Source of the DNA: Aquimonas voraii
GTDB lineage: Bacteria > Pseudomonadota > Gammaproteobacteria > Xanthomonadales > Xanthomonadaceae
Assembly: GCF_900101825.1 (NCBI RefSeq)
Contig: NZ_FNAG01000014.1
Location: 1-64,000 of the forward strand
Length of the DNA: 64,000 bases
Direction: 5' to 3'
Shown: in pieces, positions 2,530 to 22,132 of the stretch
Layout of the letters: the number at the start of each line of letters is the position of its first letter
Position numbering within the stretch: the stretch's first letter is position 1
Position numbers and translations under genes: made by a program
Notes under the pieces: generated by a model
Database searches by the model: none
The model's input: the letters and a program-made list of their open reading frames with translations, nothing else
What the model was told of the DNA's origin: nothing

Positions 2530-5591
<3,062 letters not shown>

Positions 5592-5595
<4 letters not shown>

Positions 5596-6164
5596 GCCGA
5601 GACCTCCGGTGCTGGCGCGCAGGCACTCAGAGCAGCGAGAGCGAATCGGAAGTCAGCCACCGCGAGTTCGACGGCGGCGCGCTGCGCCGGCCCTTCGAGC
5701 TGGTCCAACACCCGGCAGATGCGCGGCCAGTCACAGCGCTGGGCCAGCACCGCATCGAGAAAGCGCCTCGGCAGGTTGGCCGCTCCTCCCAGCCGATCCA
5801 GCTGCCGGGCCACGATCGAAAGCCCCGCTTCGGCGCCACGCACCACGTAGATGCGCCCCCAGATCGCGTCGGGATGCGCGGGCTCGGGGGGCGTCTCGAC
5901 GACTGCGGGCCAGGCGACGGCGAGCGCCCCCAGGTCCTGCGCAAGACAGGCCCAGGCCTCTGTCGAGGCCAGCGCGGGCCGCGCCTCCGTCTGCTGCAGA
6001 CGGGCGGCAAGCGGCGCGATGCTGGCGGCCAATGCGACCAGGTACTGCCCATAGGTCGTCGCCGAGAGTGGGGAGCACAGCATTCCCTGCATCACCGCGG
6101 TGCTCTCGACTGCCGCGTGCAGGCCGCGAGTGGCCGCGCGCAGCGCCTCAAGCCCCGCTGGCAT
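5592..6164 (-). CDS. bphO: Phytochrome-associated heme oxygenase
   Basis: This 190-residue biliverdin-producing heme oxygenase opens heme to biliverdin IXalpha, the chromophore of the adjacent bacteriophytochrome. The start at 6164 (MPAGLEALRAATRGLH) gives the family's short N-terminus and places the proximal heme ligand at His16 in the TRxLH context. Longer frames upstream are arginine-rich and overlap the preceding gene heavily. The central YGQYL segment and helical character fit the HugZ/BphO-like alpha-helical fold. The gene overlaps the end of the EAL gene by 17 bp and the phytochrome start by 4 bp, so translation is probably coupled. The length is normal for BphO proteins. The sequence does not show which reductase it uses. 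Confidence 0.92.
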
Positions 6165-7701
6165 GCGCCGCTCCGGCAGGTGCCCACAGCGCCTCCAGCT
6201 CATGCGCCGGCAGCGGTCGGCCGAACAGGAAGCCCTGGAAGCAGTCGCAGCCCATGGCCAGCAGGACGTCGCGCTGTGCCGCGGTTTCGACGCCCTCGGC
6301 AACCACGTCCATCCGCAGCGAATGCGCCAGCTGCACGATGCTCAGCAGCACGGCGCGCGCGCCTTCGTCCTTCTCGGCGTCGACGACGAAGCTGCGGTCG
6401 ATCTTCAGCAGGTCGGCGGGAAAGCGACGCAGGTAGCCCAGCGAGGAATAGCCGGTGCCGAAATCATCGATCGCGAGACCCACCCCATCGGCCTTGAGCG
6501 ACTTCAGCACGTGAATCGCGTAGTCCACGTCCTGCAGCAGCGCGCTTTCGGTGATTTCGATCTGCAGAGCCGACGGTTGTACCCGGAAGCGTTCGAGGGT
6601 GCGCTTGAACTGGCCGCGGAAATCGCTCTGGTTGAATTCGTAGCCGGACACGTTGACCGCGACCACAGGCGCCTGCCAGCCGCGCTCCCGCCAGCGCAGG
6701 ATCTGCGCGCAGGCCATCTCCACCACCCGTCGACCGAGGTCGGGCATGAAGCCAGCGCGCTCGGCGATCGGGATGAAACGCGCGGGCGAGACGTTGCCCA
6801 GCTTGGGCGACTGCCAGCGCAGCAGGGCCTCGACGCCGTCCAGCTGCGGCGCGCCGACAACAAGACGCACCTTGGGCTGGAACACAAGATGGAACTCGTC
6901 GTTCTGCAGGGCGCTGGCGCAGGCCGATTCGAGCAGCATGTCGTCCTGCATCTGCCGCGCCATCGCCTCCGAGAAGGCCCACACGGTGCCCCGCCGCTGA
7001 CGCGCGGCGGTAAACGCTGCGGCCGCCGCATGGTCGAGCAGCTCGCTGGCGCTGCGACCGTGTTCGGGCGCGATGGCCAACCCACCGGTGACGCGGTGGG
7101 CATGTTCGCCGCGGCCCACCCGGAGCGGCTGGGCGAGCACCCGCAGCCAGTGCTCGGTGGCGGCCATCGCGGCTTCGGCCGTCGGCTGTGCCAGCGATAC
7201 CAGCACCAGCTGGCCGTTGCCCAGATGGCCGGCGAACTCTCCCCGGCGCAGTTGGGCGATGACGCGCGTGCTGATCTGATCGATCAGGGCGCCGGCTTCG
7301 TTGCGTCCGTACAGCGATTCGATCTCGTGATACAGGCCCAGGTTGAACTGCGACACCGACACGATCTGGCCCAGCTGCAGCGCGGTTTCGAGCGCGCGCT
7401 CGAGTCGGAAAAGCAGGCCGGGCGCGTCCAGCAGCCCACCACTGCGACGCGCTGCGACACCTGACCGGCGCTGCACCAGACGGGCGCCATCGGCGCCCTC
7501 CAAGGCCAGCACCTCGGCATCCGCGGGCAAGGCGCCGATCGGATGTCCGTTGGCGAGGTCGTACCAGGGCAGGCCTGCCTCGCGCAGCCAGGCGCGAGCC
7601 TCTGGATTGGCAAAGCGGAGCTGGCCCTCGGGACCGACGACCAGCAGGGGCCAGAGCGCGCGCGCCAGGACCAGCCACGGCAGCTCGCTGCCGGCTGGCA
7701 T
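6148..7701 (-). CDS. Cyclic-di-GMP phosphodiesterase (degenerate GGDEF-EAL)
   Basis: This 517-residue cytoplasmic protein begins with a short PAS-like segment (about residues 5-85, with GPEGQLRFANPEARAWL). Residues about 95-245 form a GGDEF-like domain whose signature loop reads HLGNGQL (159-165), so it cannot be a normal cyclase and probably serves regulation. The C-terminal EAL domain (about 258-505) is intact: EALLRW at Glu291, NVSGYEF, EITESALL, the DDFGTGYSSL loop 6, LKIDRSFV and VAEGVET. It should hydrolyse c-di-GMP to pGpG. It starts two bases after the receiver-HATPase gene and ends inside the heme oxygenase start, so it belongs to the chemosensory/photoreceptor operon and is a plausible output of it. 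The N-terminal segment might instead be a PAS sensor for a diffusible signal. Confidence 0.93.
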   Translation of the reverse strand: MPAGSELPWLVLARALWPLLVVGPEGQLRFANPEARAWLREAGLPWYDLANGHPIGALPADAEVLALEGADGARLVQRRSGVAARRSGGLLDAPGLLFRLERALETALQLGQIVSVSQFNLGLYHEIESLYGRNEAGALIDQISTRVIAQLRRGEFAGHLGNGQLVLVSLAQPTAEAAMAATEHWLRVLAQPLRVGRGEHAHRVTGGLAIAPEHGRSASELLDHAAAAAFTAARQRRGTVWAFSEAMARQMQDDMLLESACASALQNDEFHLVFQPKVRLVVGAPQLDGVEALLRWQSPKLGNVSPARFIPIAERAGFMPDLGRRVVEMACAQILRWRERGWQAPVVAVNVSGYEFNQSDFRGQFKRTLERFRVQPSALQIEITESALLQDVDYAIHVLKSLKADGVGLAIDDFGTGYSSLGYLRRFPADLLKIDRSFVVDAEKDEGARAVLLSIVQLAHSLRMDVVAEGVETAAQRDVLLAMGCDCFQGFLFGRPLPAHELEALWAPAGAAHASGA

Positions 7702-7703
7702 GG

Positions 7704-8639
7704 CTAGAACTCACGCCAGGCCGACAGCGCGACCCTGGCCCGCACGGTGTTGCCGCAGCCGAGGTATTCAACGCTGTCGAAGCTGAGCTCGCGCGCGATC
7801 TGGATGCCGCGGCCGTTGGGTTCGGTGAGTCGGTGCGGCAGAGCTTCGAGGAAGGCGCCGGCGTCAAAGCCCGCACCCGGGTCGGCCACGGTGTAGGTCA
7901 CCGCCTCCTCGTCGCGTTCGATGCGGACGGTGGCGAACCAGCGCGAGGCATCGCGCTCGGCACGCCGTGCGGCGAGCAGCGCGGGGTAGTTGCCGCTCAG
8001 CAGTGCCGCCTTCTTCTGCTCGTAGCCGATACCGAGGCAGCCGTGCTCGATCGCATTGCTGAGCAGTTCGAACAGGCCGAAGGCGACCGGGCTCGGATCG
8101 CCGCTGGCGCGGGCCAGGAAGGTGGCCAGCTCCTTGGCCTCTTCCAGCGTGGAGTAGCGGAACTCGCCCGACAGGATCAAGCCGAGCGCGACGCTCGACA
8201 GCATGCGTCGCGTCATCTCGCGGATGTTGCGGTAGTTGCCGACCGCGCCGGCCACGATGGGGATGAGCTGGGCGCGGTCGAAGGGCTTGATGAGGTAGTA
8301 GTGGGCGCCGGCTTCGAGGCCCTGGGCGACCTGGTGCGGACTGCCGGCCGCGGTCTGCAGGATCACCGGCAGCGCGTTGAGGCGCGGGTTCTCCTTGATG
8401 CTGCGGAGCACCGTGATGCCATCCATGCCTGGCATCATCCGGTCGAGCAGGACGGCGTCGTAGCGGTCGGGCTCGGCCGCCAGCAGCTCAAGCGCTTCGC
8501 GCCCGGATTCGGCGCGCACCAGCGTGTACGGGCTGCGGGCCAGCATGCCTTCGATCAGATCGAGGTTGTCGGGCTCGTCGTCGACGATGAGGAGCGTCGC
8601 CGTGCCCGCCGCAGGATCCGTTTTTCGGTCAGCGTCCAT
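7704..8639 (-). CDS. Response regulator with HATPase_c output (receiver-anti-sigma-kinase-like)
   Basis: This 311-residue protein combines a receiver with an RsbW/GHKL-type ATPase. The receiver has the acidic pocket (Asp20, Asp21), phospho-acceptor Asp66 in LLDRMMPG and Lys118 in the KPFD context. The ATPase has an N-box (ELLSNAIEHG, Asn195), DPGAG and a GRGIQIA lid, and there is no dimerisation/phospho-His domain between the two. It is therefore not a classical histidine kinase. It resembles response regulators whose output is a serine kinase of the anti-sigma/anti-anti-sigma type. A STAS gene at the head of the same operon is a tempting partner, although that STAS lacks the usual serine. 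The start shares one base with the stop of the HTH-receiver gene, and the EAL gene follows after two bases. Phosphorylation by CheA or by the neighbouring kinases is inferred. Confidence 0.88.
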   Translation of the reverse strand: MDADRKTDPAAGTATLLIVDDEPDNLDLIEGMLARSPYTLVRAESGREALELLAAEPDRYDAVLLDRMMPGMDGITVLRSIKENPRLNALPVILQTAAGSPHQVAQGLEAGAHYYLIKPFDRAQLIPIVAGAVGNYRNIREMTRRMLSSVALGLILSGEFRYSTLEEAKELATFLARASGDPSPVAFGLFELLSNAIEHGCLGIGYEQKKAALLSGNYPALLAARRAERDASRWFATVRIERDEEAVTYTVADPGAGFDAGAFLEALPHRLTEPNGRGIQIARELSFDSVEYLGCGNTVRARVALSAWREF

Positions 8640-9271
8640 CAGGCAGCTCCAGTCTTGGCCGGGGAGAGCAGGAAATCGCCGACGCGCTGGCGTCCAAGCG
8701 GCTTCGGAAGGAAGGCCACGCCAGCGGGCAGGCCCCCGCGCCGGCCGATCTCGTCGAGGTCATAGCTCGACATCGCGGCGATGCGGATCGCCGCGGTGGC
8801 CGGGTCTGCACGCAGCGCGCGCAGCATCGCGAGACCGTCGAGCTCGGGCATGTGGATGTCGGTGATGAGCACGTCCACGGCCGTGCGGCCGAGCTGGATC
8901 AGGCCAGAGAAGCCGTTGTCGGCCTCCAGAATGCGGGCGGCGGGCAGCAGGCCACGCACGGCACGAACTGCAAGCTCTCGGTCGTTCTCGTCGTCGTCCA
9001 CCACCAGCACGCAGGGCGCGGCATCGCTCTGCACATGCGGCGGGGCTGGCGACGCGCCCGTCGCGTTCGCCGATGTCGGGCCCTGCTCGCCCTGCAGCTG
9101 CAGCCTCGAGTTGCGGACGAAATTGTCGACGCTGTCGACCGCGAGCCGGCGGTGTCCTCCGGCGGTTCGCCAGGCGCGAAGAACGCCGGCATCCACCCAG
9201 CGCTGCACGGTCTGCACCGTGACGCCGAGCATCCGGGCCACTTCGCGGGTGGTGTAGGTCTTTTCGTTCAT
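8639..9271 (-). CDS. MerR-type HTH-receiver transcriptional regulator
   Basis: This 210-residue DNA-binding response regulator has unusual domain order. Residues 5-55 are a MerR/excisionase-type winged helix (YTTREVARMLGVTVQTVQRW, then the GGHRRL wing). A disordered linker (about 60-85) follows, then a receiver (about 86-205) with acidic residues 92-94, phospho-acceptor Asp138 in TDIHMPELDG and Lys190. Most response regulators have the receiver first. I placed the start at the ATG at 9271 because the HTH begins there; the longer frame adds non-conserved residues that overlap the BLUF 3' end. It follows the BLUF gene by seven bases. It is the only predicted transcription factor in the operon, so it is the best candidate for turning CheA, phytochrome or BLUF-linked signals into gene expression. 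Its target operator is unknown. Confidence 0.9.
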   Translation of the reverse strand: MNEKTYTTREVARMLGVTVQTVQRWVDAGVLRAWRTAGGHRRLAVDSVDNFVRNSRLQLQGEQGPTSANATGASPAPPHVQSDAAPCVLVVDDDENDRELAVRAVRGLLPAARILEADNGFSGLIQLGRTAVDVLITDIHMPELDGLAMLRALRADPATAAIRIAAMSSYDLDEIGRRGGLPAGVAFLPKPLGRQRVGDFLLSPAKTGAA

Positions 9272-9278
9272 GGCATCA

Positions 9279-9752
9279 CTAGGGGCTGGAAGTGACGCGA
9301 CTGCCCGTGTTGACGGGGCGAACCAGATGTCGCGCATTGGCCGCCCAATACTGCCGCAGCAGAACGGCGGCCGGATCAGCGGCCTGTTCCCCGGCCAGCG
9401 CCTGCTCGAAGTTCGAGACTTCCGTCAGCAGCCCCGGGGGCGCAATCGCTTCGACCGCCTCCATATGGAAGAAGCCCATGGCCCAGGACGAGAACAGTCG
9501 GGACACCACCAAGGGCTGGTCGCTGAGCAGGGTGAACGCCGCATGGCGCCGATCGCGCGCGATGCGTCCGATCAGATCCGACACCTCAACCGTCGGGCCC
9601 TCGAGGCACTGCAGGAAGAAGCGGTCCTGGTAGAACAGCGCGCCGGTGATGCCGCGCCCGGTGTTGGCCCGGCGCGAGTGGACGAGCAGTTCGAACAGTG
9701 CATCCAGGCCCAGAGGCTTGTGCGAGAAGCTGGCGTACACGATTCGGCGCAT
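9279..9752 (-). CDS. BLUF-domain blue-light photoreceptor
   Basis: This 157-residue FAD-binding blue-light sensor covers the BLUF domain in residues 1-95. The photochemical residues are present: Tyr6 in RIVYAS, Asn30, Gln48 in FFLQCLEG, Trp90 and Met92 in SSWAMGF. The C-terminal 60 residues form two helices, as in short BLUF proteins such as YcgF-unrelated BlrB/PixD types, so output is by protein-protein contact rather than an attached enzyme. The ATG at 9752 gives the canonical N-terminus; the longer frame is antisense-like and would overlap cheB. It lies ten bases after cheB and seven before the HTH-receiver gene, inside the chemosensory operon. Likely partners are encoded in the operon, for example the HTH-receiver or the EAL protein, but this is inference. 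Confidence 0.95.
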   Translation of the reverse strand: MRRIVYASFSHKPLGLDALFELLVHSRRANTGRGITGALFYQDRFFLQCLEGPTVEVSDLIGRIARDRRHAAFTLLSDQPLVVSRLFSSWAMGFFHMEAVEAIAPPGLLTEVSNFEQALAGEQAADPAAVLLRQYWAANARHLVRPVNTGSRVTSSP

Positions 9753-9762
9753 GGCGATGGCC

Positions 9763-10872
9763 TCAGGGGCGCACGGACGGGGAGGCTCGACGCTGCAGGT
9801 CGAGGGTGGAGACTGCAATGATCTCGTCGGCGATGCCATCGAGCGGCACCACCGTCTCGGCCGCGCCCAGGCGGATCGCCTCGCGCGGCATGCCGAACAC
9901 GACGCAACTGGCTTCATCCTGCGCGACCGTGCGGGCGCCGGCCTGACGCATGTCGAGCAGACCGCGGGCGCCGTCGTCGCCCATGCCGGTCATCAGCACG
10001 CCGAGTGCATTGGCACCGGCGTACTGCGCCACCGAGCGGAACAGCACGTCGACCGAGGGCTTGTGGCGGTTGACGGGGGGGCCATCCAGCACCTCGACAC
10101 GATAGAGAGCCCCGCTGCGCACGACGCGCATGTGCAGCCCGCCCGGCGCGATCAGCGCGCGTCCCGGCAGCACGCGATCGCCGTGCTCGGCCTCCTTGAC
10201 GTCGATCTCGCTCAGGCTGTCCAGCCGCTTGGCGAAGCTCGCGGTGAACTTCTCGGGCATGTGCTGGACGATGACGATCCCGGCGACCAGGCGCGGCAGC
10301 GCGACCAGCACCTGCTCCAGCGCCTGGGTGCCGCCGGTGGAGGTGCCGATCGCCACCACGTTCTCGGTTGTGGCCATGGCCGACGCGCGTGCGGCGGCAG
10401 CGGCGTTGGCGGCCTGCGCGACGGGCCTGGCAGCACCTGAGCCGCGCGCGCCGATCGCGCGTGGACGCGCCCGCGCCGCCTCGCGGATGGCCTGGACGAA
10501 CTCCCGAGCGTTCTCCTCGAGAAAGCCCTTCAAGCCGAACTTCGGCTTCGCAACCACGTTGACCGCCCCGGCCGCCAGCGCCTGCAGGGTCGTTGCGGCG
10601 CCGGCTTCGGTGAGCGTCGAGCAGACGACAACCGGCGTCGGACGCTCCGCCATGATCTTTTTGAGGAAGGAGATGCCGTCCATCCGCGGCATCTCGACAT
10701 CGAGCAGCACCACGTCCGGCCATTCGACGGCCATGCGCTCCATGGCGATCAGGGGGTCCGCCGCGGTGGCGATGACGCGCAAGTCACTGGCGCTGCCGAG
10801 TACGGCCGACAGCACCTGCCGGACCACTGCGGAGTCGTCGACGATCAGCACGCGGATCGCGGCGGTGTTCAT
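9763..10872 (-). CDS. cheB: Chemotaxis response regulator protein-glutamate methylesterase
   Basis: CheB removes methyl groups from, and deamidates, MCP glutamates when phosphorylated by CheA. This 369-residue protein has a receiver (about 5-125, phospho-acceptor Asp58 in LLDVEMP), an alanine/arginine-rich linker (about 135-170) and the methylesterase (about 172-355). The catalytic triad is visible as Ser178 in GTSTGGT, His204 in VQHMP and Asp300 in GMGDDG. The ATG at 10872 overlaps the cheD stop by four bases. The longer frame starting at 11025 runs antisense-like through cheD and is not used. Length and motifs are typical. It acts with CheR and CheD on the MCP encoded in the same operon to give adaptation. 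Confidence 0.97.
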
Positions 10873-11381
10873 GGTGTCGGCTCGCAGAACGCGGGAGACA
10901 CGGGATGGAACTGCACCGCGACCACGCCGGTGGCGACATCGAAGCTGATGCGTCGATGTCCATCTCCACCGACCGACTCCGCCGCCAGCGTGATCCCCGC
11001 TGCGTCCACCAGTGCGCGGACGCAAGCGATGTTGTCGGCACCAATGTCACCCGCGGCCGGCGCGAACATGCGTCCGCCGCCGAACAGCTTGTGCACGCAG
11101 CGCTCGCGGGGGATGCCGCGCGCGGCCAGCTCCGCCCACATCAGCGGCACCACGGCGCGGCCGAACTTGCCGGCGGCGCCCTCCTTCTCTGCTGATCGCG
11201 GCCTTGTCTTCTCCTCGGGCAGGATGAAGTGGCAGCAGGCACCCGTCAGCGTCAGCGGATCCCAGAGGGTCAGGGCCACGCAGGAGCCGAGCAGGGTTTC
11301 GATCACGCCCTGTCCCCAGCGAATCGCCCATTGACCGGGCATCAGCACGATCGGCGGGCTGTGGTCCGCGTCCGTACTCAT
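10869..11381 (-). CDS. cheD: Chemoreceptor glutamine deamidase CheD
   Basis: This 170-residue CheD deamidates specific glutamines of chemoreceptors to glutamates, tuning receptor activity. The catalytic cysteine is Cys34 in the [13 protein letters not shown] context and the histidine is His51 in GACCHFILP, 17 residues later as expected. KLFGGGRMF gives the family's glycine-rich turn. The gene overlaps both neighbours by four bases, cheR upstream and cheB downstream, so the three receptor-modifying enzymes are probably translationally coupled. CheD in a gammaproteobacterial operon usually goes with CheB/CheR of the alternative, non-flagellar or accessory chemosensory type. Confidence 0.96.
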
Positions 11382-12217
11382 GGCGATGCGTCCTCTGGCC
11401 GTGCGTAGATGCCGGGGCCACGCGAAACCAGGGGCCCGGCCACCTGATGCAGGCTTTCGGACAAACCCACATAGAGGCGTCCACCGGGCTTGAGCTTGGC
11501 CGCGACGGCGCGCACGACCTGCGCCTTGGTGGCCGTCTCGAAGTAGATCAGCACGTTGCGCAGGAAGACCGCATCGAAGGGGCCGATCGCCGGCAGCGCC
11601 TCGATCAGGTTGATCTGCTCGAAGCTCACGCGCTCGCGCAGGGCACGCTCGACCAGCAGAGTGCCGGCGTAGTCGCCCTGGCCGCGCAGGCAGTAGCGGT
11701 GCAGCAGGTCGATCGGCAGTCGCTGGGCGCGTTCCATCGGGTAGTGTCCGCGCCGCGCGCGCTCGAGTACGCGCTGGCTGATGTCGGAGCCGAAGATCGA
11801 CCAGACGAGCGTCGGCCGCGTGGTCCGCGCGATCTCCGCAAGCACCATGGCGATGCTGTACGCCTCTTCGCCGCTGGAGCTGGCCGCGCTCCAGACCTCG
11901 AAGCGGCGACCGCCGGCTGCCGCCGCGCGCGCCTGCACGGCAAGCGCATCGAAGTGTTGCGGCTCACGCCAGAAGTAGGTTTCGTTGGTGGTCAGCAGAT
12001 CGATGGCGATCTGCAGCTCATCGTCCTGCGTCCGGTTCCGGATTTTCTGCAGGTACTCATCGAAGCCGCTCAGGCCGAGGGCATCGAGGCGTCGCTGCAG
12101 TCGACCGGCCACCAGGGCCTCCTTGCCGGGGCCGATCGAGATGCCCGACACCTCGAACAGCAGCCTGCGGATGCCGTCGAAGGTGGTGGCGCTCAGCGCG
12201 GGCCGGTCAAGCAGCAT
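11378..12217 (-). CDS. cheR: Chemotaxis protein methyltransferase
   Basis: CheR uses S-adenosylmethionine to methylate glutamates of the chemoreceptor. This 279-residue protein has an N-terminal helical domain (about 1-85, FDGIRRLLFEVSGI then LTTNETYFWREP) and a Rossmann-type methyltransferase domain (about 95-270) with WSAASSSGEEAYSIAM for SAM binding, GSDIS, and FLRNVLIYF. The Thr-Asn-Glu-Thr-Tyr-Phe-Arg segment is the family's hallmark. It begins eight bases after cheW and overlaps cheD by four. The cognate MCP ends in a pentapeptide (NFSRF) fitting the CheR-docking consensus, which suggests tethering of CheR to the receptor. Confidence 0.97.
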   Translation of the reverse strand: MLLDRPALSATTFDGIRRLLFEVSGISIGPGKEALVAGRLQRRLDALGLSGFDEYLQKIRNRTQDDELQIAIDLLTTNETYFWREPQHFDALAVQARAAAAGGRRFEVWSAASSSGEEAYSIAMVLAEIARTTRPTLVWSIFGSDISQRVLERARRGHYPMERAQRLPIDLLHRYCLRGQGDYAGTLLVERALRERVSFEQINLIEALPAIGPFDAVFLRNVLIYFETATKAQVVRAVAAKLKPGGRLYVGLSESLHQVAGPLVSRGPGIYARPEDASP

Positions 12218-12224
12218 GTGTACC

Positions 12225-12758
12225 TCAGTGGTGGTCCAGCGCGGCCAGACGGACGCCGGCCAGCTCCTGGAAGTCGAAGGTGGAGGTGATGTCGAGCAGG
12301 ATCAGGAAGCTCTCGCCGCGATTGACCATGCCGCGGATGAAGTCGGCCCTGACCGCGGTGCCAAAGTTGGGCACCGGCATGACCTCGGAGGCCGCCACGT
12401 CGACCACCTCGCTGACGCCGTCCACCAGCACGCCGATGTCGTGGCGTTCGGCGCCATCGGTGAGCTCGACGATGATCACGCAGGCCCGCCTCCCGGGCGG
12501 CGAGGGCTGGCGTTCGAGGCGGATCGCCAGGTCGACCACGGGCACCACCAGACCGCGCAGATTGATCACCCCGCGAATGCAGGGCGGCGTCATCGGCACC
12601 TCGGTGACGCCCGCGTACTGGAGGATCTCCTTGACCGCCGCGATGTCGACACCGAAGTGGGTGCCGCCGGAGACGAAGCTCAGGCACTGATGATCGTGCA
12701 TGTCACCGTTCTGGCGCGCCGGCTCCGCCAGCGTTTGCAGGGCGTGTGCACTGTCCAT
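12225..12758 (-). CDS. cheW: Chemotaxis coupling protein CheW
   Basis: CheW bridges the receptor tip to the CheA P5 domain to build the signalling array. This 177-residue protein has a short unstructured N-terminus (about 1-22) followed by the CheW SH3-like double barrel. Typical segments are CLSFVSGGTHFGVDIAAV, VKEILQ, IRGVINLRGLVVPVVDL and the NFGTAVRADFIRGM turn. The start at 12758 is the only good ATG before the domain, although Met20 would also leave a whole domain. It lies between the MCP gene (11-bp gap) and cheR (7-bp gap). It is the only CheW in the window, so this is a one-receptor, one-coupler system locally. Confidence 0.96.
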   Translation of the reverse strand: MDSAHALQTLAEPARQNGDMHDHQCLSFVSGGTHFGVDIAAVKEILQYAGVTEVPMTPPCIRGVINLRGLVVPVVDLAIRLERQPSPPGRRACVIIVELTDGAERHDIGVLVDGVSEVVDVAASEVMPVPNFGTAVRADFIRGMVNRGESFLILLDITSTFDFQELAGVRLAALDHH

Positions 12759-12769
12759 GGCAGTCGCCC

Positions 12770-14866
12770 TCAGAAGCGCGAGAAGTTGGATTCGAAGCGG
12801 TCATCGCCCTCCTTCGCGCCGGCCTCCTTGCGGCGCTTGCCGGACAGCGGGGTGACCCGTGGCTTCTCCCGCGAGCGCGGCTGGGCGACATCGCCGGCGG
12901 CTGTCGATACGCGGAAGAACTCCATCAGCTGCTGCAGCTGTTCGGACTGCGCCGACATCTCCTCGGCGGTGGCGGCCAGTTCTTCCGAGGCCGATGCGTT
13001 CTGCTGCGTCGCCTTGTTGAGCTGCGACATCGCCGAGTTGATCTGCTGCACGCCGGAACTCTGCTCATCGGAGGCGGCGGTGATCTCCTGCACGAGATCC
13101 GAGGTGCGACGTATGCTCGGGACCATCTCCTTCAGCAGCTCGCCAGCCCGCTCGGCGACCGTGACGCTGCCGGCCGCCAGCTCACCGATTTCCTGCGCCG
13201 CGACCTGGCTGCGCTCTGCCAGCTTGCGCACCTCGGCGGCGACCACCGCGAAGCCCTTGCCGTGCTCGCCGGCGCGGGCCGCCTCGATGGCCGCGTTCAA
13301 GGCCAGCAGGTTGGTCTGATAGGCGATGTCGTCGACGATGCCGATCTTGCCGGCGATCTGCTTCATGGCGGCGACCGTTCGACCCACCGCCTCGCCGCCC
13401 TCGCCGGCCTCTTTTGCCGCCTTGGAGGCCATCGAGTCGGTGACTTTGGCGTTGTCCGCGTTCTGCGCGATGGAGGCGCTCATCTGCTCCACCGAGGCGC
13501 TGGTCTGCTCGACGCCTGCAGCCTGCTCCGAGGCTGCCTGGCTGATCGACTGGGCGGTGGCGCTGACCTGCTCGGCGGCGGCGGTGAGCGAGTCGGCCGA
13601 AAGGCGCACCTCACCGATGATGCGAGCCAGGGTTTCGACGGTCTGGTTGGTGTCATCCTTCAATTGACCGAACAGGCCGGTGTAGTCGGCATCGATCTTC
13701 TGGGTGAGATCGCCCTTGGCGATGGCGGACAGCACCCGCGCGACATCGCTCAGGCCGGTCTCGGCGACGTCCATCAGATTGTTCATGCCGCCTGCCAGCT
13801 TGGCGAAGAAGCCGGCCTTGCCCTCGGCGACCAGACGCTGCGAGAAGTCGCCGGCGCCGGCGCCTTCGACGACGCGCTGGACCTCGGCCTCGATGGCGAC
13901 CTCCTCGGTGCGGTCCTTCCATTCGACCACGGTGCCGAGGCGCGCTCCGCCCTCCCCGAAGATCGGCGTGGCGATCAGCGAGAAGGTGCGTCCGCCCACC
14001 TGGATCTCGGTCCGGTAGGTGCTGCGCAGATTGCCGAGCAGGTTGCGCTGATGCGCAGGGTTGCGGTGGAAAACGTCGAAGTTCGCGCCCACCACCTTCT
14101 TGGCGTCGAAGCCGGGCAGCTGCTTGCGCAGGTCCTGCTCGGCGGTGGCGAGCATCTCGAGTACGGAGCGGTTGCAGAACAGGATGCGACCGCTGTCGTC
14201 GGCCAGCATCACATTGGTGGTGGTGGCTTCGAGCGCCTGCTTCACCCGGGCGTTGGCGACACTCTCCTCGGCGGCGCTCGCAAGGTTCTCGCGGACCGCG
14301 TCGATGGCAGCGGTGATCTGCGCCTTCTTGCCCGGCAGTCGGTCCATGGCGACCGAGAAGTCCCCTTTGGCGTAGCCGGTGATGACGTCGACAACCTTCA
14401 TCTTCACGGCGATGTGCGAGGCCACCAGGCCATTGATGCCTTCGGCGATGGCGCCAAAGCCACCCTTGAAGCGCGCACTGTCGATGCGCTCGTCGATCCA
14501 GCCGGCTTCATGCTGGCTGACCATCTCCGACTGGGCCGCCTGGAACTCGCGCAGCGAGCGGGCGAGGCCGTTTACCGCCTGCGCCGATTCGCCCAGCGCA
14601 TCCTCGCCGCTGTAGCGCACGGCGGCCTGGAAGTCGCCCGCACAGATCGCCTCGACACTGCCGGAGAACTCGCGGAGCGTCCGCCCCGAGTAGTGGGTGA
14701 GCCACCAGGCGCAGTAGAAGATCGAGCCGATGCCGATGGCGTCAACGGCGATGATCAGCGGCCCCGTGACGAGGTGCGAGACCAGGATGGTGAGAACCGC
14801 GAGGATCGAGACGGCCACCATGGTCGCCTTGATGCGGGCTTGGAACGTGAGGCTGGCAAGTGACAT
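12770..14866 (-). CDS. Methyl-accepting chemotaxis protein, PAS-containing, with C-terminal tether pentapeptide
   Basis: This 698-residue receptor starts at the ATG at 14866, with GGAGAG upstream. Two membrane helices lie at about 17-32 and 36-56 with almost no loop between them, so it has no periplasmic ligand domain and senses from the cytoplasm or membrane. HAMP-like helices follow (about 58-110). A PAS domain (about 215-325, with [19 protein letters not shown]) is followed by further HAMP/linker segments (about 330-400). The signalling hairpin tip contains [20 protein letters not shown] and [14 protein letters not shown]. The last five residues, NFSRF, fit the aromatic-x-x-aromatic pentapeptide that docks CheR/CheB/CheD. 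The PAS ligand may be heme, FAD or nothing; sequence alone does not say. Its position between cheA and cheW makes it the operon's dedicated receptor. It could instead receive light input through contact with the BLUF or phytochrome proteins, which is inference. Confidence 0.95.
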
Positions 14867-14934
14867 GTTGGCTCTCCGGAGCTGCAGCGAGTGACCAGGT
14901 GCGGTGAGGAAGGGGGTGGGAATGCGCGGGTGGC

Positions 14935-17151
14935 TCAGGCCCGGGGTGCACTTTCCAGGCCCAGTGCGAGGGCCCGTGGCGGCGGGCTGCCGCGCGCGCC
15001 CCGCAGCAGTTCGCCGACATCGAGGATCAGCGCGATCTCGCCGGTCCCGAGGATGGTCGAGCCCGACAGCGGGCGAATGCGCGAGAACACCTTGCCCAGC
15101 GGCTTGATCACCGTCTGGTGTTCGCCGAGGAGCTGGTCGACCAGCAGCCCCGCTCGCACGCCATCGGACTTGACGATGACGATGCTCCGGCGGGTCGCCG
15201 TGGTCGCGGGCGGAATGCCGAGGCTGCGCGCGACGTCCAGGATCGGCAGCGCGGTACCGCGCTGACTGATCACTCGTTCGCCCTCGCCCACGGCGGCGGC
15301 GGACAGACACTCCTCGATGTTCTCCAGCGGAATCGCCAGCACGGCGGTGCCGCAGCGCACGAGGAAGCCATCGATGATGGCCAGGGTCAGCGGCAGGCGG
15401 ATTTCCATGCGTGTGCCGCGTCCGCGTTCGGACTGGATGGCGATGCGCCCCCGCAGCTTCTCGACGTTCTGGCGGACCACGTCCATGCCGACGCCGCGGC
15501 CGGAGATGTCGGTGACGGCATCGGCGGTCGAGAAGCCGGGCTCGAAGATCAGGGCGTGGATGGCTTCTTCGGACAGCAGCGCACCCTCGGGCACGAGGCC
15601 TTTGGCGCGAGCCTTGGCCAGCACGCGTTCGGTGTCGATGCCGCGGCCGTCGTCGGCGACGCGAATCACAATGCTGCCGGAGTCGTGGCGCGCCGACAGG
15701 CACAGCCGGCATTCGCGCGGCTTGCCCGCCGCCTCGCGTTCGGCGGGGGTTTCAAGCCCGTGGTCCAGCGCGTTGCGCACGAGGTGCATCAGCGGATCGC
15801 TGATCTTCTCCACCACCGACTTGTCGAGCTCGGTGTCGCCGCCTTCGATATCGAGACGCACCTCCTTGCCGAGGCTGGCGGAGAGATCGCGCACGACCCG
15901 ACGGAACTTGGCGAAGGTCTCCTCGACGGGGACCATGCGCAAAGCCAATGAGCTGTTGCGGATCTCCTCGACCAGGCGGCCCATGTGGTGGGTGGTTTCC
16001 TGCAGCTGGGCGTTGCCCTCGGACTGGTTGCGCGCCGCGGCGCTGACGATCACCAGCTCGCCGACCAGATCGATCAACGCGTCGAGCTTCTCGGCCTGCA
16101 CCCGGAAGACACGGGCTTCTTCGGTCTTCTCGCGCACCTGCGCCTGCTTGCGCAGCGCCGCGTCCACCACTGCCGGCGCCACCAGGCGGTTCTCGACCAG
16201 CACCTCGCCCAGCGGCTTGCGGCGATCGCCAGCCAGGCTTTCCATGTGATGGACCGCCAGCGCGCGGTGCAGGTCCTTTTCGCTGATCGCCCTGCAGGCG
16301 AGCAGGATCTCTCCGAGGCGCCCCGAATCCTGCGGCAGCGCCTGGATGAGCCGGATGTACTCCTCGGCATCCGCACGCGGAGGAATCAGCCGGACGTCGC
16401 ATTCATCGTCGATGAATTCGAACGCGTCTTCGATTTCCCGCTGGCTCGCGGTCGTCGACAGCCGCAGCTCGAAGCCGAGATGGCAGCGCTCCGGGTCGAG
16501 CTCGGACAGCGGCGGCACGGCGTCGTCGATGGTTTCCGACAGGGTCAACTCGCCCAGCGAGCCCAGGTAGCGGATGGTCGCCAGCGGGTCGATGCCGCGC
16601 AGATGGCAGTCGGGATGGAAGCGCAGGGAGATGTGCCAGGTCGAGCGCGCGGCATCGCCCTGCGGATCGGCGGGGTCCGGCTCGGCAACGCGGCTCAGGC
16701 GCGTGCTCGCTGTTGGAATCAGCGTCATGGCGCTGGGCTTGAACGCGGCGAGCGACTGCAGAAGCGCCTCCGACGCGAGCCGCTGGGCCTCCGGCGGGTC
16801 CACCTCCGGCCCCTCGCTGCGGGCGAAGTCCACCAGTTCGGTGACATGGTCGCAGCAGCGCAGCAGCAGGGAGCTCAGGGGTGGCGACAGGTCGATCTGA
16901 CCGCTGCGCAGCTGATCCAGCAGGGTTTCGACTTCGTGGGTGAAGCCGACGATCGCGTTGAGGCCGAACAGACCGGCCGAGCCCTTGATCGTGTGGATGC
17001 TGCGGAACAGAGCGTTGAGCAGGTCCGGGGACTGGGGCGCATCCTCCAGTTCGAGGAGGGTCTGCTCCATCTGCTCGAGCATCTCGCCGGCCTCGATATA
17101 GAAGGTCGCCAGGGCCTTCTGCAGGGCCTTCTGGTAGTCGTCGGCACTCAT
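14935..17151 (-). CDS. cheA: Chemotaxis histidine kinase CheA
   Basis: CheA autophosphorylates under receptor control and passes phosphate to CheB and other receivers. This 738-residue protein has an HPt domain (about 1-110, phospho-acceptor His53 in [13 protein letters not shown]), a long P2-like/linker region (about 140-310), a dimerisation domain, a GHKL ATPase (N-box LVRNALDHG, then DDGRGID and GRGVGMD) and a C-terminal CheW-like domain. The sequence contains a duplicated adaptation-type linker with an unusual segment around 200-260. It overlaps the STAS gene by four bases upstream and precedes the MCP by 68 bp. No CheY is encoded nearby, so the HTH-receiver and receiver-HATPase proteins are the most likely additional phosphate acceptors. 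That routing is inferred from neighbourhood only. Confidence 0.97.
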
Positions 17152-17441
17152 GTGCGCACCTGGGTCGCCGGTTCCGGCGGCGTGAAACGGTGTTCCAGCG
17201 CGAGCAGGGTGAGGGTCGCGGCCAGTCGCGCAGACCGCTGCAGCCGCAGCTGCATTCCACGCAACTCGGCTTCCTTGGCGGTTGCCAGCAGCAGTTGGAC
17301 ACCCGCGCCATCGATCTCCTGCACCCCGCGGCCATCGAGCTCGAACACGTCGGCGGGCCCGGACAGCAGCTGCAGCAGCGCTTCGCGCACGCCGACGACC
17401 GACTGGATGGTCAAGGACTCGGGCAGTGTCCAGGCGATCAT
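17148..17441 (-). CDS. STAS-domain protein of the chemosensory operon
   Basis: This 97-residue protein is a single STAS domain, the fold of anti-sigma factor antagonists. VFELDGRGVQEIDGAGVQLLL matches the core strand and helix split around residue 40-60, but the position of the usual phospho-serine (D-S-S/A-G) reads D-G-A-G here. It probably is not regulated by serine phosphorylation and may act as a scaffold. It starts at the ATG at 17441 behind a strong GAGGAG and overlaps cheA by four bases, so it is the first gene of the operon. STAS genes next to cheA recur in gammaproteobacterial chemosensory clusters. A link to the receiver-HATPase downstream is possible but not shown. Confidence 0.9.
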   Translation of the reverse strand: MIAWTLPESLTIQSVVGVREALLQLLSGPADVFELDGRGVQEIDGAGVQLLLATAKEAELRGMQLRLQRSARLAATLTLLALEHRFTPPEPATQVRT

Positions 17442-17518
17442 GGTTCGCGCTCCTCGCGGCAGGTCGCGGGCCTCAGGTCAGTGGCGCGGTCGGGTGAAGG
17501 TCCAGTGACCGCGAGCTC

Positions 17519-17547
17519 ATCATACTCATCACAATCATCACTTTCAT
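17519..17547 (-). promoter_or_regulatory. Candidate sigma-70 promoter of the chemosensory/photoreceptor operon
   Basis: On the minus strand, ATGAAA (17542-17547) and TATGAT (17519-17524) are separated by 17 bp, about 75 bp upstream of the STAS start. The sequence around them is an AT-rich island in otherwise GC-rich DNA. It lies in the only gap larger than 100 bp between the upstream kinase genes and the operon. Confidence 0.45.
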
Positions 17548-17585
17548 CTTTTAAATTGCCGATAAACTGCCGTTCGTCGCTTGTA

Positions 17586-20120
17586 TTAGACCGTTGGTCT
17601 GTGGCCTCGGGGGATTCGGAACCGGAACAGCCCGCCCTCGGGACTCGCCTCGGCCCACAGATCGCCACCGTGGGCCCGGATGATCTCGCGGGCGATGGGC
17701 AGCCCGAGGCCTGTTCCGCCTTCGCGCTCGCGGCCAGGCGATCCGCCCTGGATGAACTTGCCGAAGATGGTTGCAAGCTGGTCTTCAGGAATGCCCGGGC
17801 CCTGATCCCGCACGCACAGTTCGAGGCTATGGTCGGGACCCGAGCTGACCTCGATGCGGATCGCGCCCCCATCGGGGGAGAAGCGCACGGCGTTCGCCAG
17901 CACATTCCTCAGCACCTGGAGGGTGCGCAACTCGTCCACATCGACGAGCGGCGAGTCGGCGGCGCCTTCGCTCTCCTCGGCCAGGGCATCGAGACCATGC
18001 AACTCGATACGCAGGCCCTTGGCCATCAGCATGGCGGACAGCTCTTCCTGGATGCTGTTGAGCAGTTGCCCCAGCGGAATCGATTGGCGACGCAGGGCCA
18101 CCGCACCGCTTTCGAGCTTGGCCAGATCCAGCAGTTCATCGACCTGGGCCACCAGTCGCTGCGCGGCCTTGCGCGCCCGGGCCAGCTTCGCAGCCGCTTG
18201 CTGCGCGCTGGCTTGAGTGCCCCCCTCTGGGCCCGTGAGGTCGTCGCTCGCCAGGTCGATGAACCCCAGGATCGCGTGCAGTGGCGTACGCAGCTCGTGG
18301 GAGACGTTGGCGAGAAGGTCGGAACCCAAGGCCTCGGCGCGCTCCGCCGCGGTCCGCGCCCGCACCGCCTCCTGCGCCTCGGTGTGGAGCACGCTGGCCA
18401 GCTGATCTGCACGCACTCGCAGCGCCTCGGCGGCCAGGTACTCCACCGAGCAATCCCATGTCGCCCCCACCAGACGCCGGTGGCCATCGGCCGAGGTGGT
18501 GGTCGCCGCAACGGTTCTCAGGCGATGGCTTTCACCGTTGGGCAGCAGCACGCTGTAGTCACCCGCGTGCGTGGCATCGCCACCGTTGCGCAGGGTCGCG
18601 ACGAAGCTCGCCACGCGCTCCAAGGACTCCGGCACGAGCCTTGCGCGCAGCAGATCCGCCGGCGTTTCAACGGTGTCGGGCTCTTCGCCGAACAGCCGGT
18701 ACATGGTGTCGTCCCAGAGGTGCAGGCCGGTCTTCGGGTCGTATTCCCAAACGCCAATGCCGCCGGCGGTCAGGGCGAGACGATGGCGCAGATTGAGGCG
18801 GTCGAGGGACACCTTGGCGTCCTCCAGCGCCGCCACCGCACTTCGCAAGGCGCTCACATCGATCATCACCCCGGTCAGCGTGGTCTGACCGCGTGTGTCG
18901 AGGCCGACGCTGACGACATCGCGAATCCACAGGTAGCTGCCGTCAGCGTGCCGGAAGCGGTATTCGAAGGCGTGCGAGCGCCCCGCCGCCGATTGCGCCG
19001 CGCAGAACGTGGGCGCCCAGGCGGCGTCCTCGGCGTGCATGTGCTGCTTCCAGAACCCAGGGCGCAGCCAGTCGGCTCTCGGGTAGCCAAGCAAGCGCTC
19101 CGCGCTGCCGCTGACGAAGAGAAAGTCCAAGCTGCTGGCGTCGGCCTCCCAGACAATGCCGTCGACCTGCTCGAGCAGGCGCTCAAGGCGCCTGACCTCA
19201 TGCACGCGCTCGCTGCGCTCGGCCAGCGCAGCCGTCTCGGCGGCGCGACTCTCGGCGAGCAGCAATCGCACGTAGAGCGCGGTGATGCCAATCGCACATG
19301 CCCTCAACTCATCCGCGGCTGAGCCCAGGGTGGCCGCTCTGTCGATGCCAAGCAGCGGAGCAAGCTCGAGGTCGTGCAGGGCGAACATCAGCATGAACAG
19401 CAGCGCCGACAGGCGCACCGACAGCTGGGTGGCGGCCATCAGCAGCAGAAGCGCGACCAGCGCGTCATCGAAGGCGCGAAAGACGAGCGGCAGGACGAGC
19501 GCCAGCACGGCCAGACCCAGGGCTCCAACGAATCGCAGAGCCCGCGCGCGCGGGGCGAGGCCCGCGAGCGGCGCATCGCCCAGCGTGCTTCGCCAGACCA
19601 GCCAGGGCGTCACGACGATCGCGGCGGCACCCGCGCTTGCCGACATCCAGTCGAGCAGCGGGGGCGCGCCGGAACGATCCAGCAGCAGCGCGTACCCTGC
19701 TGCGACCGCGATCGCCGACAGCAGTGGTGGCAGCATCACCACCGCGAGCCCGGCCTTGGCGAAATCGCCGCTGCGCCGTATCCGTCCATCCTCGCTGATC
19801 GAGGCCAGGACGAACATCATCATCCCCGCTTCCAGAAGGTCGGCGAGGACGTGATTCAGATGCAGCCAGATCGAGGCCTCATGAAGGCTGAGCTGCAACA
19901 GCAGCAGGCCGATGGCATGGCCACCGAGCAGCGGCAGGAAGGTCGAACGCCCGCCGAGCCGGAAGGCCAGGATCAGCACCCCGATGTTCGGCCACCAGCG
20001 TCTCAGGATTTCGCCTTCGCTCGCGAACCAGCGCTCGGAGATCAGCCCGAGCAGGAACGCGAGCAAAGCGGCGAGCAGGATCTGAACGAACAGGGATTGA
20101 AGCTGCCTGGGCTGCGTCAT
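17586..20120 (-). CDS. Membrane sensor histidine kinase with MASE-like N-terminus and two PAS domains
   Basis: This 844-residue kinase starts at the ATG at 20120, overlapping the preceding kinase stop by four bases. Residues about 8-300 hold seven or eight hydrophobic segments, like MASE1-type integral sensory domains. They contain WWPNIGVLILAF and the RxGGRSTFLP turn. Two PAS domains follow (about 330-440 and 460-580). The HisKA domain has LLANVSHELRTPLH and the ATPase has NVLANAVRFSP, DQGPGIP and GGTGLGL. All catalytic residues are present. No receiver domain is attached and no response regulator adjoins it, so it is an orphan kinase. It ends 144 bp before the STAS-cheA operon. Phosphotransfer to the operon's receivers is plausible only by proximity. 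Confidence 0.92.
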   Translation of the reverse strand: MTQPRQLQSLFVQILLAALLAFLLGLISERWFASEGEILRRWWPNIGVLILAFRLGGRSTFLPLLGGHAIGLLLLQLSLHEASIWLHLNHVLADLLEAGMMMFVLASISEDGRIRRSGDFAKAGLAVVMLPPLLSAIAVAAGYALLLDRSGAPPLLDWMSASAGAAAIVVTPWLVWRSTLGDAPLAGLAPRARALRFVGALGLAVLALVLPLVFRAFDDALVALLLLMAATQLSVRLSALLFMLMFALHDLELAPLLGIDRAATLGSAADELRACAIGITALYVRLLLAESRAAETAALAERSERVHEVRRLERLLEQVDGIVWEADASSLDFLFVSGSAERLLGYPRADWLRPGFWKQHMHAEDAAWAPTFCAAQSAAGRSHAFEYRFRHADGSYLWIRDVVSVGLDTRGQTTLTGVMIDVSALRSAVAALEDAKVSLDRLNLRHRLALTAGGIGVWEYDPKTGLHLWDDTMYRLFGEEPDTVETPADLLRARLVPESLERVASFVATLRNGGDATHAGDYSVLLPNGESHRLRTVAATTTSADGHRRLVGATWDCSVEYLAAEALRVRADQLASVLHTEAQEAVRARTAAERAEALGSDLLANVSHELRTPLHAILGFIDLASDDLTGPEGGTQASAQQAAAKLARARKAAQRLVAQVDELLDLAKLESGAVALRRQSIPLGQLLNSIQEELSAMLMAKGLRIELHGLDALAEESEGAADSPLVDVDELRTLQVLRNVLANAVRFSPDGGAIRIEVSSGPDHSLELCVRDQGPGIPEDQLATIFGKFIQGGSPGREREGGTGLGLPIAREIIRAHGGDLWAEASPEGGLFRFRIPRGHRPTV

Positions 20121-22132
20121 GGACTGGGCAGCTCCATGACGAAGGACGAGCCTCCGCCCTCCGGCCGCTCCGCCCACAGGCGTCCACCATGCAGCTCGAG
20201 GATGCCGCGGGCGATGGGCAGGCCGAGGCCGGTGCCGCCTGCGCCGGTCTTGGTACGGCTGCTCTGGGTGAAGCGATCGAACACCGACTCCAGCTCCGCC
20301 TCGGGAATGCCCGGCCCCTGATCGCTGACGCGCAGCTGCAGGGCGCCGGCTTCGACCGTTCGTGCCTCCACATGCACGGCGCCGCCCTTCGGCGAGAAGC
20401 GCACGGCGTTGGCGATGACGTTGCGAAGCGCCTGACCGAGCCGACCCGGATCCGCCATGACACGGCCCTGGGGGACGAGCGTCTTGCGGACGCAGAGCCC
20501 CTTGTTGGCGGCCGCCACCTCGAACTCGCCGATGACCGCGTCAACGATCGTTTCGAGCTCGGTTTCCTCCGGCTGGATCACCAGTCGACCGGACTCGATC
20601 TTCGCCGCGTCCAGAAGGTCGTTGACCAGCTTGAGCAGTTCGGTGGCGCTGGCCTTGGCCTTTTCCAGGAACCGCTGCAGGGTGTCGCGATCGGCCGATT
20701 CGAGCTCTTCCAGGGCAAGACCGGTGAAGCCCAGCACGCTGTGCAGCGGCGAGCGCAGCTCATGCGAGATGTTGGTCAGGAACTCGTCCTTGGCGCGGCT
20801 GGCGTCTTCCGCATGCTGGCGGGCGGTTTCGAGCTCGGCGGTGCGCGCACGCACCCGCGCTTCCAATTCGCGCTTGCCTGCCTCCAGGGCCTCAAGCAGC
20901 GACTTGCGTTCGGTGATGTCCTGGAACGCGCCCCGCAACATGCGGATCTCGCCCGCGTCGCGTTCCGCCTCGCCCTGGGCACGCACCCAGCGCCGGTTGC
21001 CTTTGGCGGTCACGATCTCCAATTCGAGATCCCAGGGTGTGCCCTCGGCGATACAGGCGTCCAAGGCCTGCTGGATGCGCGGACGGCACTCGACCGCATA
21101 GAAGCCGATCGCCTCATCGAGGCGGGGGCGATAGCCGGGATCGACCTCATGGATGCGGCAGACCTCGTCCGTCCACAGCGGACCGGGCTCGCCCGGCAGA
21201 TAGCTCCAGCCGCCGATCCCCGCCATGCGCCCCGCCGCATCAAGCAGGGCCGAATAGGTACGCAACGCCTGCAGGCTGCGCTGCAGCTCGTCCTCGGTCT
21301 GCTTGGCGCGGCTGATGTCGATCTGGCTGCCGACCATCAGTTCGGGCCGACCATCGCCGCTGAAGCGCACCACCTGCCCACAGTCGTGCACCCAAACCCA
21401 GTAACCCTCGCGATGGCGGACCCGATAGGTCGCCTCATAGCGTGGCGTCGTCCCCGCAAGGTGCGCTTCGATGCTGCGCGAGCAGAGCAGCAGGTCGTCC
21501 GGATGCACCTGGTCCATCCAGGTGTCCACGCTCAAGGGCGCCAGCGCCTCCAGGCTTTGGCCGACGATCTCGGCCCAGCGCGTGTTCATGCGCGCGCGCC
21601 CGCTCTGGACCTCCCATTCCCAGGTGCCCGCACCCGTCGCCTCCAGCAGGCTTTCCAGGCGGCGACGGGCCTGATGGGCGTCCTCCTGCCGCTTGGCCGC
21701 CGCGTGCACGCGCGCGGCCAGACGCAGAGCGTCAGTGGCCTCGACCGCAAGGGCCCCGGCGGGAGCGCCCGCAGGCCCCTGCAGAGCGAGGATCCAGACC
21801 TCGGCCTCGGCCGTCGTCAGTTCGAATCTGTGCAGGCCCGAGCTCAGGCTGGAGGCCGGTCGCTGCAGCTTCGCCAGCAGCCGACGCCAGGCCTCTTCTT
21901 CGTCGGCCGCAGCGGACGGCGGGCGACCGCTGCGCGCGAGCAACACCGGTGGCGCCGCGGCACCGGTGCTGCTCGCGCGCAGCAAGGCCGCTGCGCTCAG
22001 ACCGTGCAGGCCCATCAGGCCGCGCAGCAGGCGTTCCAGCAGATCGTCGGCGCGGCTGGACGCCAGCGCCGCCTCGAGAACCTCCAAAGCGATGCCCATC
22101 CAGGCGCGGGACGGCGTGAGCGCGTCCTTCAT
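20117..22132 (-). CDS. Cytoplasmic PAS-PAS histidine kinase
   Basis: This 671-residue soluble kinase starts at the ATG at 22132. The longer frame upstream is proline/arginine-rich and unlikely to be used. An N-terminal region (about 20-140) looks like a GAF-type domain without a clear motif. PAS domains cover about 165-280 and 295-410 and include YWVWVHDCG and DITERK boundaries. After a coiled linker comes HisKA (FLTNISHELRSPLH) and an ATPase with NVIANAVRFSP, DQGPGIP and GGTGLGLPIARG. Its catalytic half closely resembles those of the downstream membrane kinase and the bacteriophytochrome, which suggests paralogues. It overlaps the membrane kinase start by four bases and they form a two-kinase operon upstream of the chemosensory genes. 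The sensed signal is unknown. Confidence 0.9.
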   Translation of the reverse strand: MKDALTPSRAWMGIALEVLEAALASSRADDLLERLLRGLMGLHGLSAAALLRASSTGAAAPPVLLARSGRPPSAAADEEEAWRRLLAKLQRPASSLSSGLHRFELTTAEAEVWILALQGPAGAPAGALAVEATDALRLAARVHAAAKRQEDAHQARRRLESLLEATGAGTWEWEVQSGRARMNTRWAEIVGQSLEALAPLSVDTWMDQVHPDDLLLCSRSIEAHLAGTTPRYEATYRVRHREGYWVWVHDCGQVVRFSGDGRPELMVGSQIDISRAKQTEDELQRSLQALRTYSALLDAAGRMAGIGGWSYLPGEPGPLWTDEVCRIHEVDPGYRPRLDEAIGFYAVECRPRIQQALDACIAEGTPWDLELEIVTAKGNRRWVRAQGEAERDAGEIRMLRGAFQDITERKSLLEALEAGKRELEARVRARTAELETARQHAEDASRAKDEFLTNISHELRSPLHSVLGFTGLALEELESADRDTLQRFLEKAKASATELLKLVNDLLDAAKIESGRLVIQPEETELETIVDAVIGEFEVAAANKGLCVRKTLVPQGRVMADPGRLGQALRNVIANAVRFSPKGGAVHVEARTVEAGALQLRVSDQGPGIPEAELESVFDRFTQSSRTKTGAGGTGLGLPIARGILELHGGRLWAERPEGGGSSFVMELPSP

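Follow-up and report, generated by a model that had tools for sequence, protein, structure and literature searches.

The 64,000-nucleotide stretch of the Aquimonas voraii genome analysed here (the window) contains a chemosensory operon in which no CheY-like gene was found among the called genes, and a response regulator with a MerR-type HTH encoded within it, the HTH-receiver, is probably the autoregulator of the operon, as judged from its domains and from a repeated motif before the first gene. Adjacent to it is encoded a receiver fused to an RsbW-type ATP-binding domain, the receiver-HATPase. With somewhat better than even confidence, we interpret the HTH-receiver as a phospho-regulated transcription factor of the operon and the receiver-HATPase as a co-regulated effector of the TciR type. 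A BldC-type winged HTH would bind head-to-tail to the 9-bp repeats TGATGANNN over the promoter before the STAS gene, and the C-terminal receiver, phosphorylated by CheA or by a kinase of the same operon, would alter the cooperative binding to DNA. A stimulus would then reset the expression of the STAS-CheA...BphP run instead of acting on a CheY that touches the motor, which suggests an array working via gene control rather than via a motor protein. The receiver of the second protein would control its RsbW-type domain, which would act on a partner other than the STAS protein of the operon.

The operon genes form one run on the minus strand in the order STAS-CheA-MCP-CheW-CheR-CheD-CheB-BLUF-HTH-receiver-receiver-HATPase-EAL-BphO-BphP, preceded by two PAS histidine kinase genes, HK1 and HK2 (Table 1). 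Neighbouring genes overlap or are separated by short gaps, the largest being that of 62 bp between CheA and MCP when the upstream-extended starts are taken for MCP, CheB, BLUF and BphO. The phospho-His motif of CheA is kept. Both response regulator frames proved to be real and to occupy exactly positions 7704-9271, and the absence of a CheY-like gene among the called genes agrees with the sequence-only reading.

Table 1. Coordinates of the operon genes, the two preceding kinase genes and the candidate regulatory sites in the window.
Feature	Position	Strand	Remarks
Bacteriophytochrome histidine kinase (BphP)	2530..5595	-	PAS_2-GAF-PHY-PAS-HisKA-HATPase; Cys14; PASDIP stretch
Putative heme oxygenase (BphO)	5592..6164	-	Pfam E 0.0066, 16.7 bits against a cut-off of 23; start read by hand
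GGDEF-EAL protein	6148..7701	-	
Receiver-HATPase	7704..8639	-	RsbW-type HATPase_c_2; D66; N-box E191/N195
HTH-receiver	8639..9271	-	BldC/excisionase-type winged HTH (~5-60), low-confidence linker (61-82), receiver with D138
BLUF blue-light sensor	9279..9752	-	Start read by hand
CheB with receiver	9763..10872	-	Start read by hand
CheD	10869..11381	-	
CheR	11378..12217	-	
CheW	12225..12758	-	
Aer2-like MCP	12770..14866	-	HAMP, PAS; C-terminal NFSRF; start read by hand
CheA	14935..17151	-	Hpt with His53; dimerisation, HATPase and CheW domains
STAS protein without phosphoacceptor	17148..17441	-	DGAG
Candidate operator	17517..17549	-	Four head-to-tail units, 9-bp period (AGATGA, then TGATGA three times); HK2-STAS gap
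Promoter-like site	17519..17547	-	ATGAAA-17-TATGAT, 9/12, consensus match only; overlaps the repeats
PAS histidine kinase HK2	17586..20177	-	Upstream of the candidate operator
PAS histidine kinase HK1	20117..22132	-	Upstream of the candidate operator

Region 2530-22132 brings together in a single run the genes of a red-light sensor (BphP), a blue-light sensor (BLUF), a chemosensory array and an EAL protein. Matches to the BLUF protein at E ≤1e-6 were found in 30 of the 119 genomes of the family. Residues ~235-345 of CheA (16117-16449, minus strand) contain two LGE..L-type stretches with what we take to be a resemblance to the MshEN/GspE N-terminal c-di-GMP module; this reading was not confirmed, Pfam giving only DUF4388 at E 0.06.

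The HTH-receiver product has 210 residues, in which Pfam recognises an HTH_17/MerR domain (residues 6-54, E 3.1e-12) followed by a Response_reg domain (88-196, E 6.2e-13). The NCBIfam model HTH_BldC matches the HTH with an E value of 2e-11 and 43.5 bits, below its curated cut-off of 77. In a structure model (pLDDT 84, built from 11 sequences) a linker of low confidence joins the winged HTH to the receiver, and the best fold matches of the model are receivers. The phosphorylation sites of both regulators are complete, and their numbering by Asp138 and Asp66 in the earlier reading was correct: the residue sets are D92/D93/D138/S168/K190 in the HTH-receiver and D20/D21/D66/T96/K118 in the receiver-HATPase. 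No functional study of HTH-receiver proteins was found in the open-access literature.

The receiver-HATPase comprises 311 residues, with Response_reg at 17-128 (E 4.4e-26) and HATPase_c_2 at 186-302 (E 2.1e-8). Its lack of a phospho-His domain was borne out, as Pfam returned no HisKA or Hpt match at E 0.01, and no PP2C match at the same threshold. The protein keeps intact boxes at its ATP site (E191, N195, D253-x-G255-x-G257, G276-R-G278). An alignment of 52 homologues was taken from 60 loci (L009-L068) after removal of the own copy (L009) and of seven short, partial or different ORFs (L030, L031, L032 and L034-L037); in it N195, H199, K209, D253, G255, G257, G276, R277, G278, G296 and N297 are invariant. 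The position of D66 is Asp in 50 of the 52, and that of E191 is Glu in 50, being replaced by Asp in L021 and by Ala in the copy of a second family genome, G100. A single-sequence structure model of this protein was poor (pLDDT 49) and was left unused.

Both architectures are already known. TciR of Vogesella indigofera is a receiver-RsbW response regulator, studied genetically in 2025, that has a single histidine kinase as its partner and governs a pigment; its authors state that the organism has no RsbV homologue (PMC12826045, in the part cited). By its description, TciR shares with the receiver-HATPase the N-terminal receiver, the C-terminal RsbW-like domain and a wide distribution (PMC12826045), and the protein of the window has the corresponding composition, namely an N-terminal receiver with its phosphosite and a C-terminal HATPase_c_2 with N, G1 and G2 boxes and no PP2C. 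Unlike the TciR gene, the receiver-HATPase gene sits in a che/photoreceptor operon. SenB (PDB 9qih) matches residues 16-300, covering both domains, with an E value of 1.4e-13; no paper on SenB was found in the open-access literature. The matches to the receiver of the HTH-receiver include that of a Colwellia 'merR family' DNA-binding response regulator (PDB 3cnb), the listed chain of which is the receiver domain only, the MerR-type DNA-binding label coming from its name.

The two regulators had been called unusual, a wording that overstates the case. The HATPase region found matches (E ≤1e-8) in 2 of the 119 genomes sampled from the family, 28 of the 369 from the class and 48 of the 398 from the phylum, the own genome being counted in each, and most of the class and phylum matches lie in a frame of receiver-HATPase size. 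The HTH-receiver was matched at E ≤1e-14 in 19 of the 369 class genomes, the own included, with at most 8 candidates scored per genome; three of these matches (G372, G467, G424) cover the receiver only. At E ≤1e-10, and with at most 26 candidates per genome, 14 of the 119 family genomes gave a match. Only the own genome and G100 exceeded 50 bits over both domains; two marginal matches (G026, G052) span both domains and have a stop inside.

The proposal that both proteins belong to the chemosensory system had come from their neighbourhood, and it gains support from G100, which represents another genus of the family. Contig C83 of this genome carries STAS-CheA-MCP-CheW-CheR-CheD-CheB with an HTH-receiver 183 bp further on, followed by a Crp-type regulator on the opposite strand. 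Apart from CheB and the HTH-receiver, no receiver protein was found in this cluster, CheY included. The identity between the window and G100 HTH-receivers is 30/40 in the HTH core, 7/35 in the linker and 59/115 in the receiver. The receiver-HATPase gene of G100 is unlinked: it lies on contig C55, next to a divergently oriented gene for a PAS kinase. Its product and that of the window are sisters in the tree (support 1.0), and the copy of genome G765 is distant. Matches to the HATPase region and to the HTH plus receiver fall in the same 2 of the 119 family genomes (Fisher 1.4e-4), a sample of two genomes that would lack independence had the genes been passed on or transferred as a unit. The class sample gave no sign of a general association of the two proteins: only the own genome and G207 occur in both lists. 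The BLUF matches do not include G100.

The third link is a DNA motif. The direct repeat TGATGANNN before the STAS gene of the window has a 9-bp period and includes three perfect TGATGA units. Upstream of the STAS gene of G100 lies an imperfect form, TGATGA-N3-TAATGA-N3-CGATGT (15/18), with no promoter-like match found at that site. Upstream of the unlinked receiver-HATPase gene of G100, TGATGA-N3-TGATGA overlaps a promoter-like TTGACA-17-GATGAT. In 1.28 Mb (29%) of the 4.43-Mb own genome, the window site (18/18) is the sole place that scores at least 16/18, the next best score being 15 at 8 places. The perfect two-unit form was found within 2.79 Mb of overlapping loci in the window, upstream of the G100 receiver-HATPase, upstream of the HTH-receiver gene of G254, and at L077 and L235, the last two lying inside open frames of at least 180 codons.

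The repeat recurs before related HTH-receiver genes. Twelve nearer promoters (loci L119-L130, those with wide flanks out of 32 loci) had been retrieved before the repeat was noticed. A contig search with the HTH-receiver pair kept 80 loci of 187 relatives, and 10 of these 80 were used. Scores of at least 13 were reached by 8 of the 12 promoters, compared with 9 of the 145 remaining upstream regions in these loci (Fisher 1.3e-6), or by 7 of 11 promoters when G254 is left out (Fisher 7.8e-6); this control is unmatched for composition, AT-rich hexamers separating the promoters better and TGATGA ranking 26 of 4096. The 11 nearest other promoters, a set that omits L124 as part of the discovery scan, were compared with dinucleotide-preserving shuffles. 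TGATGA ranked 4 of 4096 hexamers, behind ATAATG, GAAAAT and GATAAT, and a period of 9 was the best of those from 6 to 15 (z 9.2; periods 6 and 12 came next with 5.9 and 5.5, and the remaining ones gave less). New shuffles gave a z of 9.8 and rank 2.

Seventeen more distant HTH-receiver promoters had no repeat signal (period 9, z -0.2; TGATGA rank 3918 of 4096), and in a single-promoter test only one of them (L195) reached p 0.02 in 200 shuffles. When all 28 promoters were pooled, a set that also omits the own gene, the G100 gene and L101 (the gene of L130), z was 5.1 and TGATGA ranked 280 of 4096. An operator code for all HTH-receivers is rejected because the 17 distant promoters lack the signal, and the code is assigned to the nearer subgroup. 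Three of the 12 nearer promoters (L122, L129, L130) have no repeat, and the wing of their proteins is without the AW of the window protein; L109 and L192 have a window-like AW wing yet no repeats. Six promoters of related clusters without an HTH-receiver score only 8-12/18, against 15 in G100 (in G112 the stretch before the first CheY-size gene was taken as the promoter). The role proposed for the repeat in the window is based on the window itself, G100 and the nearer subgroup.

BldC of Streptomyces offers a model for how such a site might be recognised, as it binds 9-nt AATTXXXX(C) repeats in a head-to-tail arrangement (PMC5859096, in the part cited). The HTH-receiver resembles it in its MerR-like winged HTH and in the 9-nt direct repeats of the predicted site; it differs from BldC, which has 68 residues, no receiver and the repeat AATTXXXX(C), in possessing a receiver and in the candidate repeat TGATGANNN (PMC5859096). 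Given the match to the BldC model, the 9-nt repeats of BldC and the predicted fold, an autoregulator whose grip on the repeats would be set by its receiver is the simplest account. BsmR of Stenotrophomonas, a response regulator with an EAL output that functions independently of phosphorylation (PMC5498567, in the part cited), counts against this mechanism.

The donor of the phosphate may be a kinase other than CheA. Elsewhere, HTH-receiver genes are for the most part found close to genes of histidine kinases, so that the phosphate could come from HK1, HK2 or BphP; among the 12 stretches L119-L130 no che cluster was seen. In that case the phytochrome, HK1 and HK2 might serve both receivers, with CheA feeding only CheB or a CheY encoded elsewhere. 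Both repeat regions of G100 (L112:6425-8113 and L069:15275-17347) lie between divergent genes, and each pair includes one PAS histidine kinase, which fits this arrangement; since both regions adjoin such a gene, the PAS kinases may belong to the regulon too. We nevertheless consider this alternative rather doubtful, as the HTH-receiver of G100 ends a che cluster in which it is the only receiver found besides CheB, and we retain CheA among the possible donors in the autoregulator model.

The sequence-only reading had also proposed a serine-kinase-like output, with the STAS protein of the operon as substrate. In SpoIIAA/RsbV the Ser after the Asp is the phosphoacceptor, and the Glu of the N-box is the general base of the kinase. 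An RsbW-type kinase that phosphorylates the operon STAS, and so switches partners, would agree with the HATPase_c_2 domain and its intact ATP boxes, and G765 and G492 have a DSAG STAS, a receiver-PP2C and a (receiver-)HATPase after cheB. The STAS proteins of the window, G100 and G069, however, carry DGAG at the acceptor place, and in nine CheA-adjacent STAS proteins the residue after the Asp is G, A, T, S or L. Moreover, Ala replaces the N-box Glu in the G100 receiver-HATPase, no PP2C was found in the operon, and two other STAS genes of the own genome adjoin PP2C proteins with a HATPase_c_2 of their own. Because DGAG replaces the phosphoacceptor, serine phosphorylation of the operon STAS, tempting as this lead was, is disfavoured, and we regard it as highly improbable. 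We favour a HATPase domain that binds or phosphorylates another protein; a DSAG STAS encoded on contig C22 of the own genome is a possible substrate outside the operon.

The two other STAS genes lie on contigs C19 and C20 of the own genome (L281:6808-8852 and L282:6794-9615) and adjoin SpoIIE-HATPase_c_2 fusion proteins. The gene of one fusion protein, which has GAF domains, neighbours mlaE and a gene for a CDP-alcohol phosphatidyltransferase; for the second fusion protein a dCache match below cut-off was obtained. A third, weaker PP2C match is present in the own genome.

The partner could instead be a sigma factor. In Shewanella, RpoS is controlled by CrsR and CrsA, both encoded at the F7 che1 locus (PMC9855816, in the part cited), and the authors of the TciR study propose sigma-factor inhibition (PMC12826045). 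The receiver-HATPase would then be an anti-sigma factor, as CrsR is on sigma-S, released or bound upon phosphorylation of its receiver. A search with TIGR02394, which exceeded its cut-off in 1 of 14 control genomes, detected no RpoS over cut-off in any of the 10 genomes tested, including the own and G100. Taken literally, the CrsR-sigma-S model is disfavoured by this result, and we consider an anti-sigma function unlikely, with three lower-scoring sigma-type matches of the own genome remaining as possible targets. A TciR-like effector with a partner other than the operon STAS is the reading that we carry forward; TciR itself is comparably placed, Vogesella having no RsbV homologue according to the authors (PMC12826045).

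The parentage of the operon points to the F7 type of chemosensory systems. STAS lies upstream of CheA, the receptor is Aer2-like and ends in a pentapeptide, and the order CheR-CheD-CheB is kept, as in F7 stages 1-2 and in Shewanella Che1, where phosphatase or anti-sigma partner genes also belong to the locus (PMC7184735, PMC9855816, in the parts cited). The NFSRF terminus fits the CheR-tether pentapeptide given for Aer2 receptors (PMC7184735), and the MCP scores 399 bits with the NCBIfam Aer2 model, below the cut-off of 1200. Unlike these loci, the operon is without the CheY expected in an F7 cluster, among the called genes, and no PP2C was found in it; the genome has no sigma-S over cut-off, MCP precedes CheW, and the HTH-receiver and receiver-HATPase are present instead.

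CheD was sought in 65 genomes, nearly all of them selected because they had a match to the HATPase region, and in five of them (own, G366, G492, G647, G765; read by eye) a CheD match lies within 10 kb of the HATPase-region match on the same contig. In G765, G492 and G366 a (receiver-)HATPase gene is found at most 3 kb after cheB; G647 has no further recognisable che gene near the pair. A DSAG STAS and a receiver-PP2C protein precede the (receiver-)HATPase in G765 and G492, the G492 copy being without a receiver match. This agrees with stage-1 F7 clusters, described with STAS and serine phosphatase genes (PMC7184735), and with CrsR/CrsA of Shewanella Che1 (PMC9855816). Neither the HTH-receiver nor the receiver-HATPase was seen in the STAS-CheA stretches fetched from G057, G069, G112, G085, G017 and G006. 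With the window proteins as phmmer queries, G112 (L163) was found to carry two CheY-size receivers before STAS, and G085 (L164), G017 (L165) and G006 (L166, a stretch that ends inside the cluster) an EAL protein with receiver similarity. Because these relatives carry different genes, the output gene of this STAS-CheA cluster type appears to vary between them.

The role of F7 stages 1 and 2 has been called unclear (PMC7184735, in the part cited). We tentatively propose, with less than even confidence, that CheY was given up here for a receiver-controlled BldC-like factor assembling head-to-tail on the 9-bp repeats before the operon of its own array, that the light-receptor array sets its own expression, that the receiver-HATPase belongs to the regulon even where it is unlinked, and that a subgroup of HTH-receivers shares the operator code. 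The usual CheY is missing, and its readable replacement is a probable transcription factor for which a DNA site can be predicted, so that the output of the operon would be testable by a simple binding assay. Since the repeats recur before the genes of an HTH-receiver subgroup near histidine kinases, such an assay would also give access to a group of regulators that has received little study.
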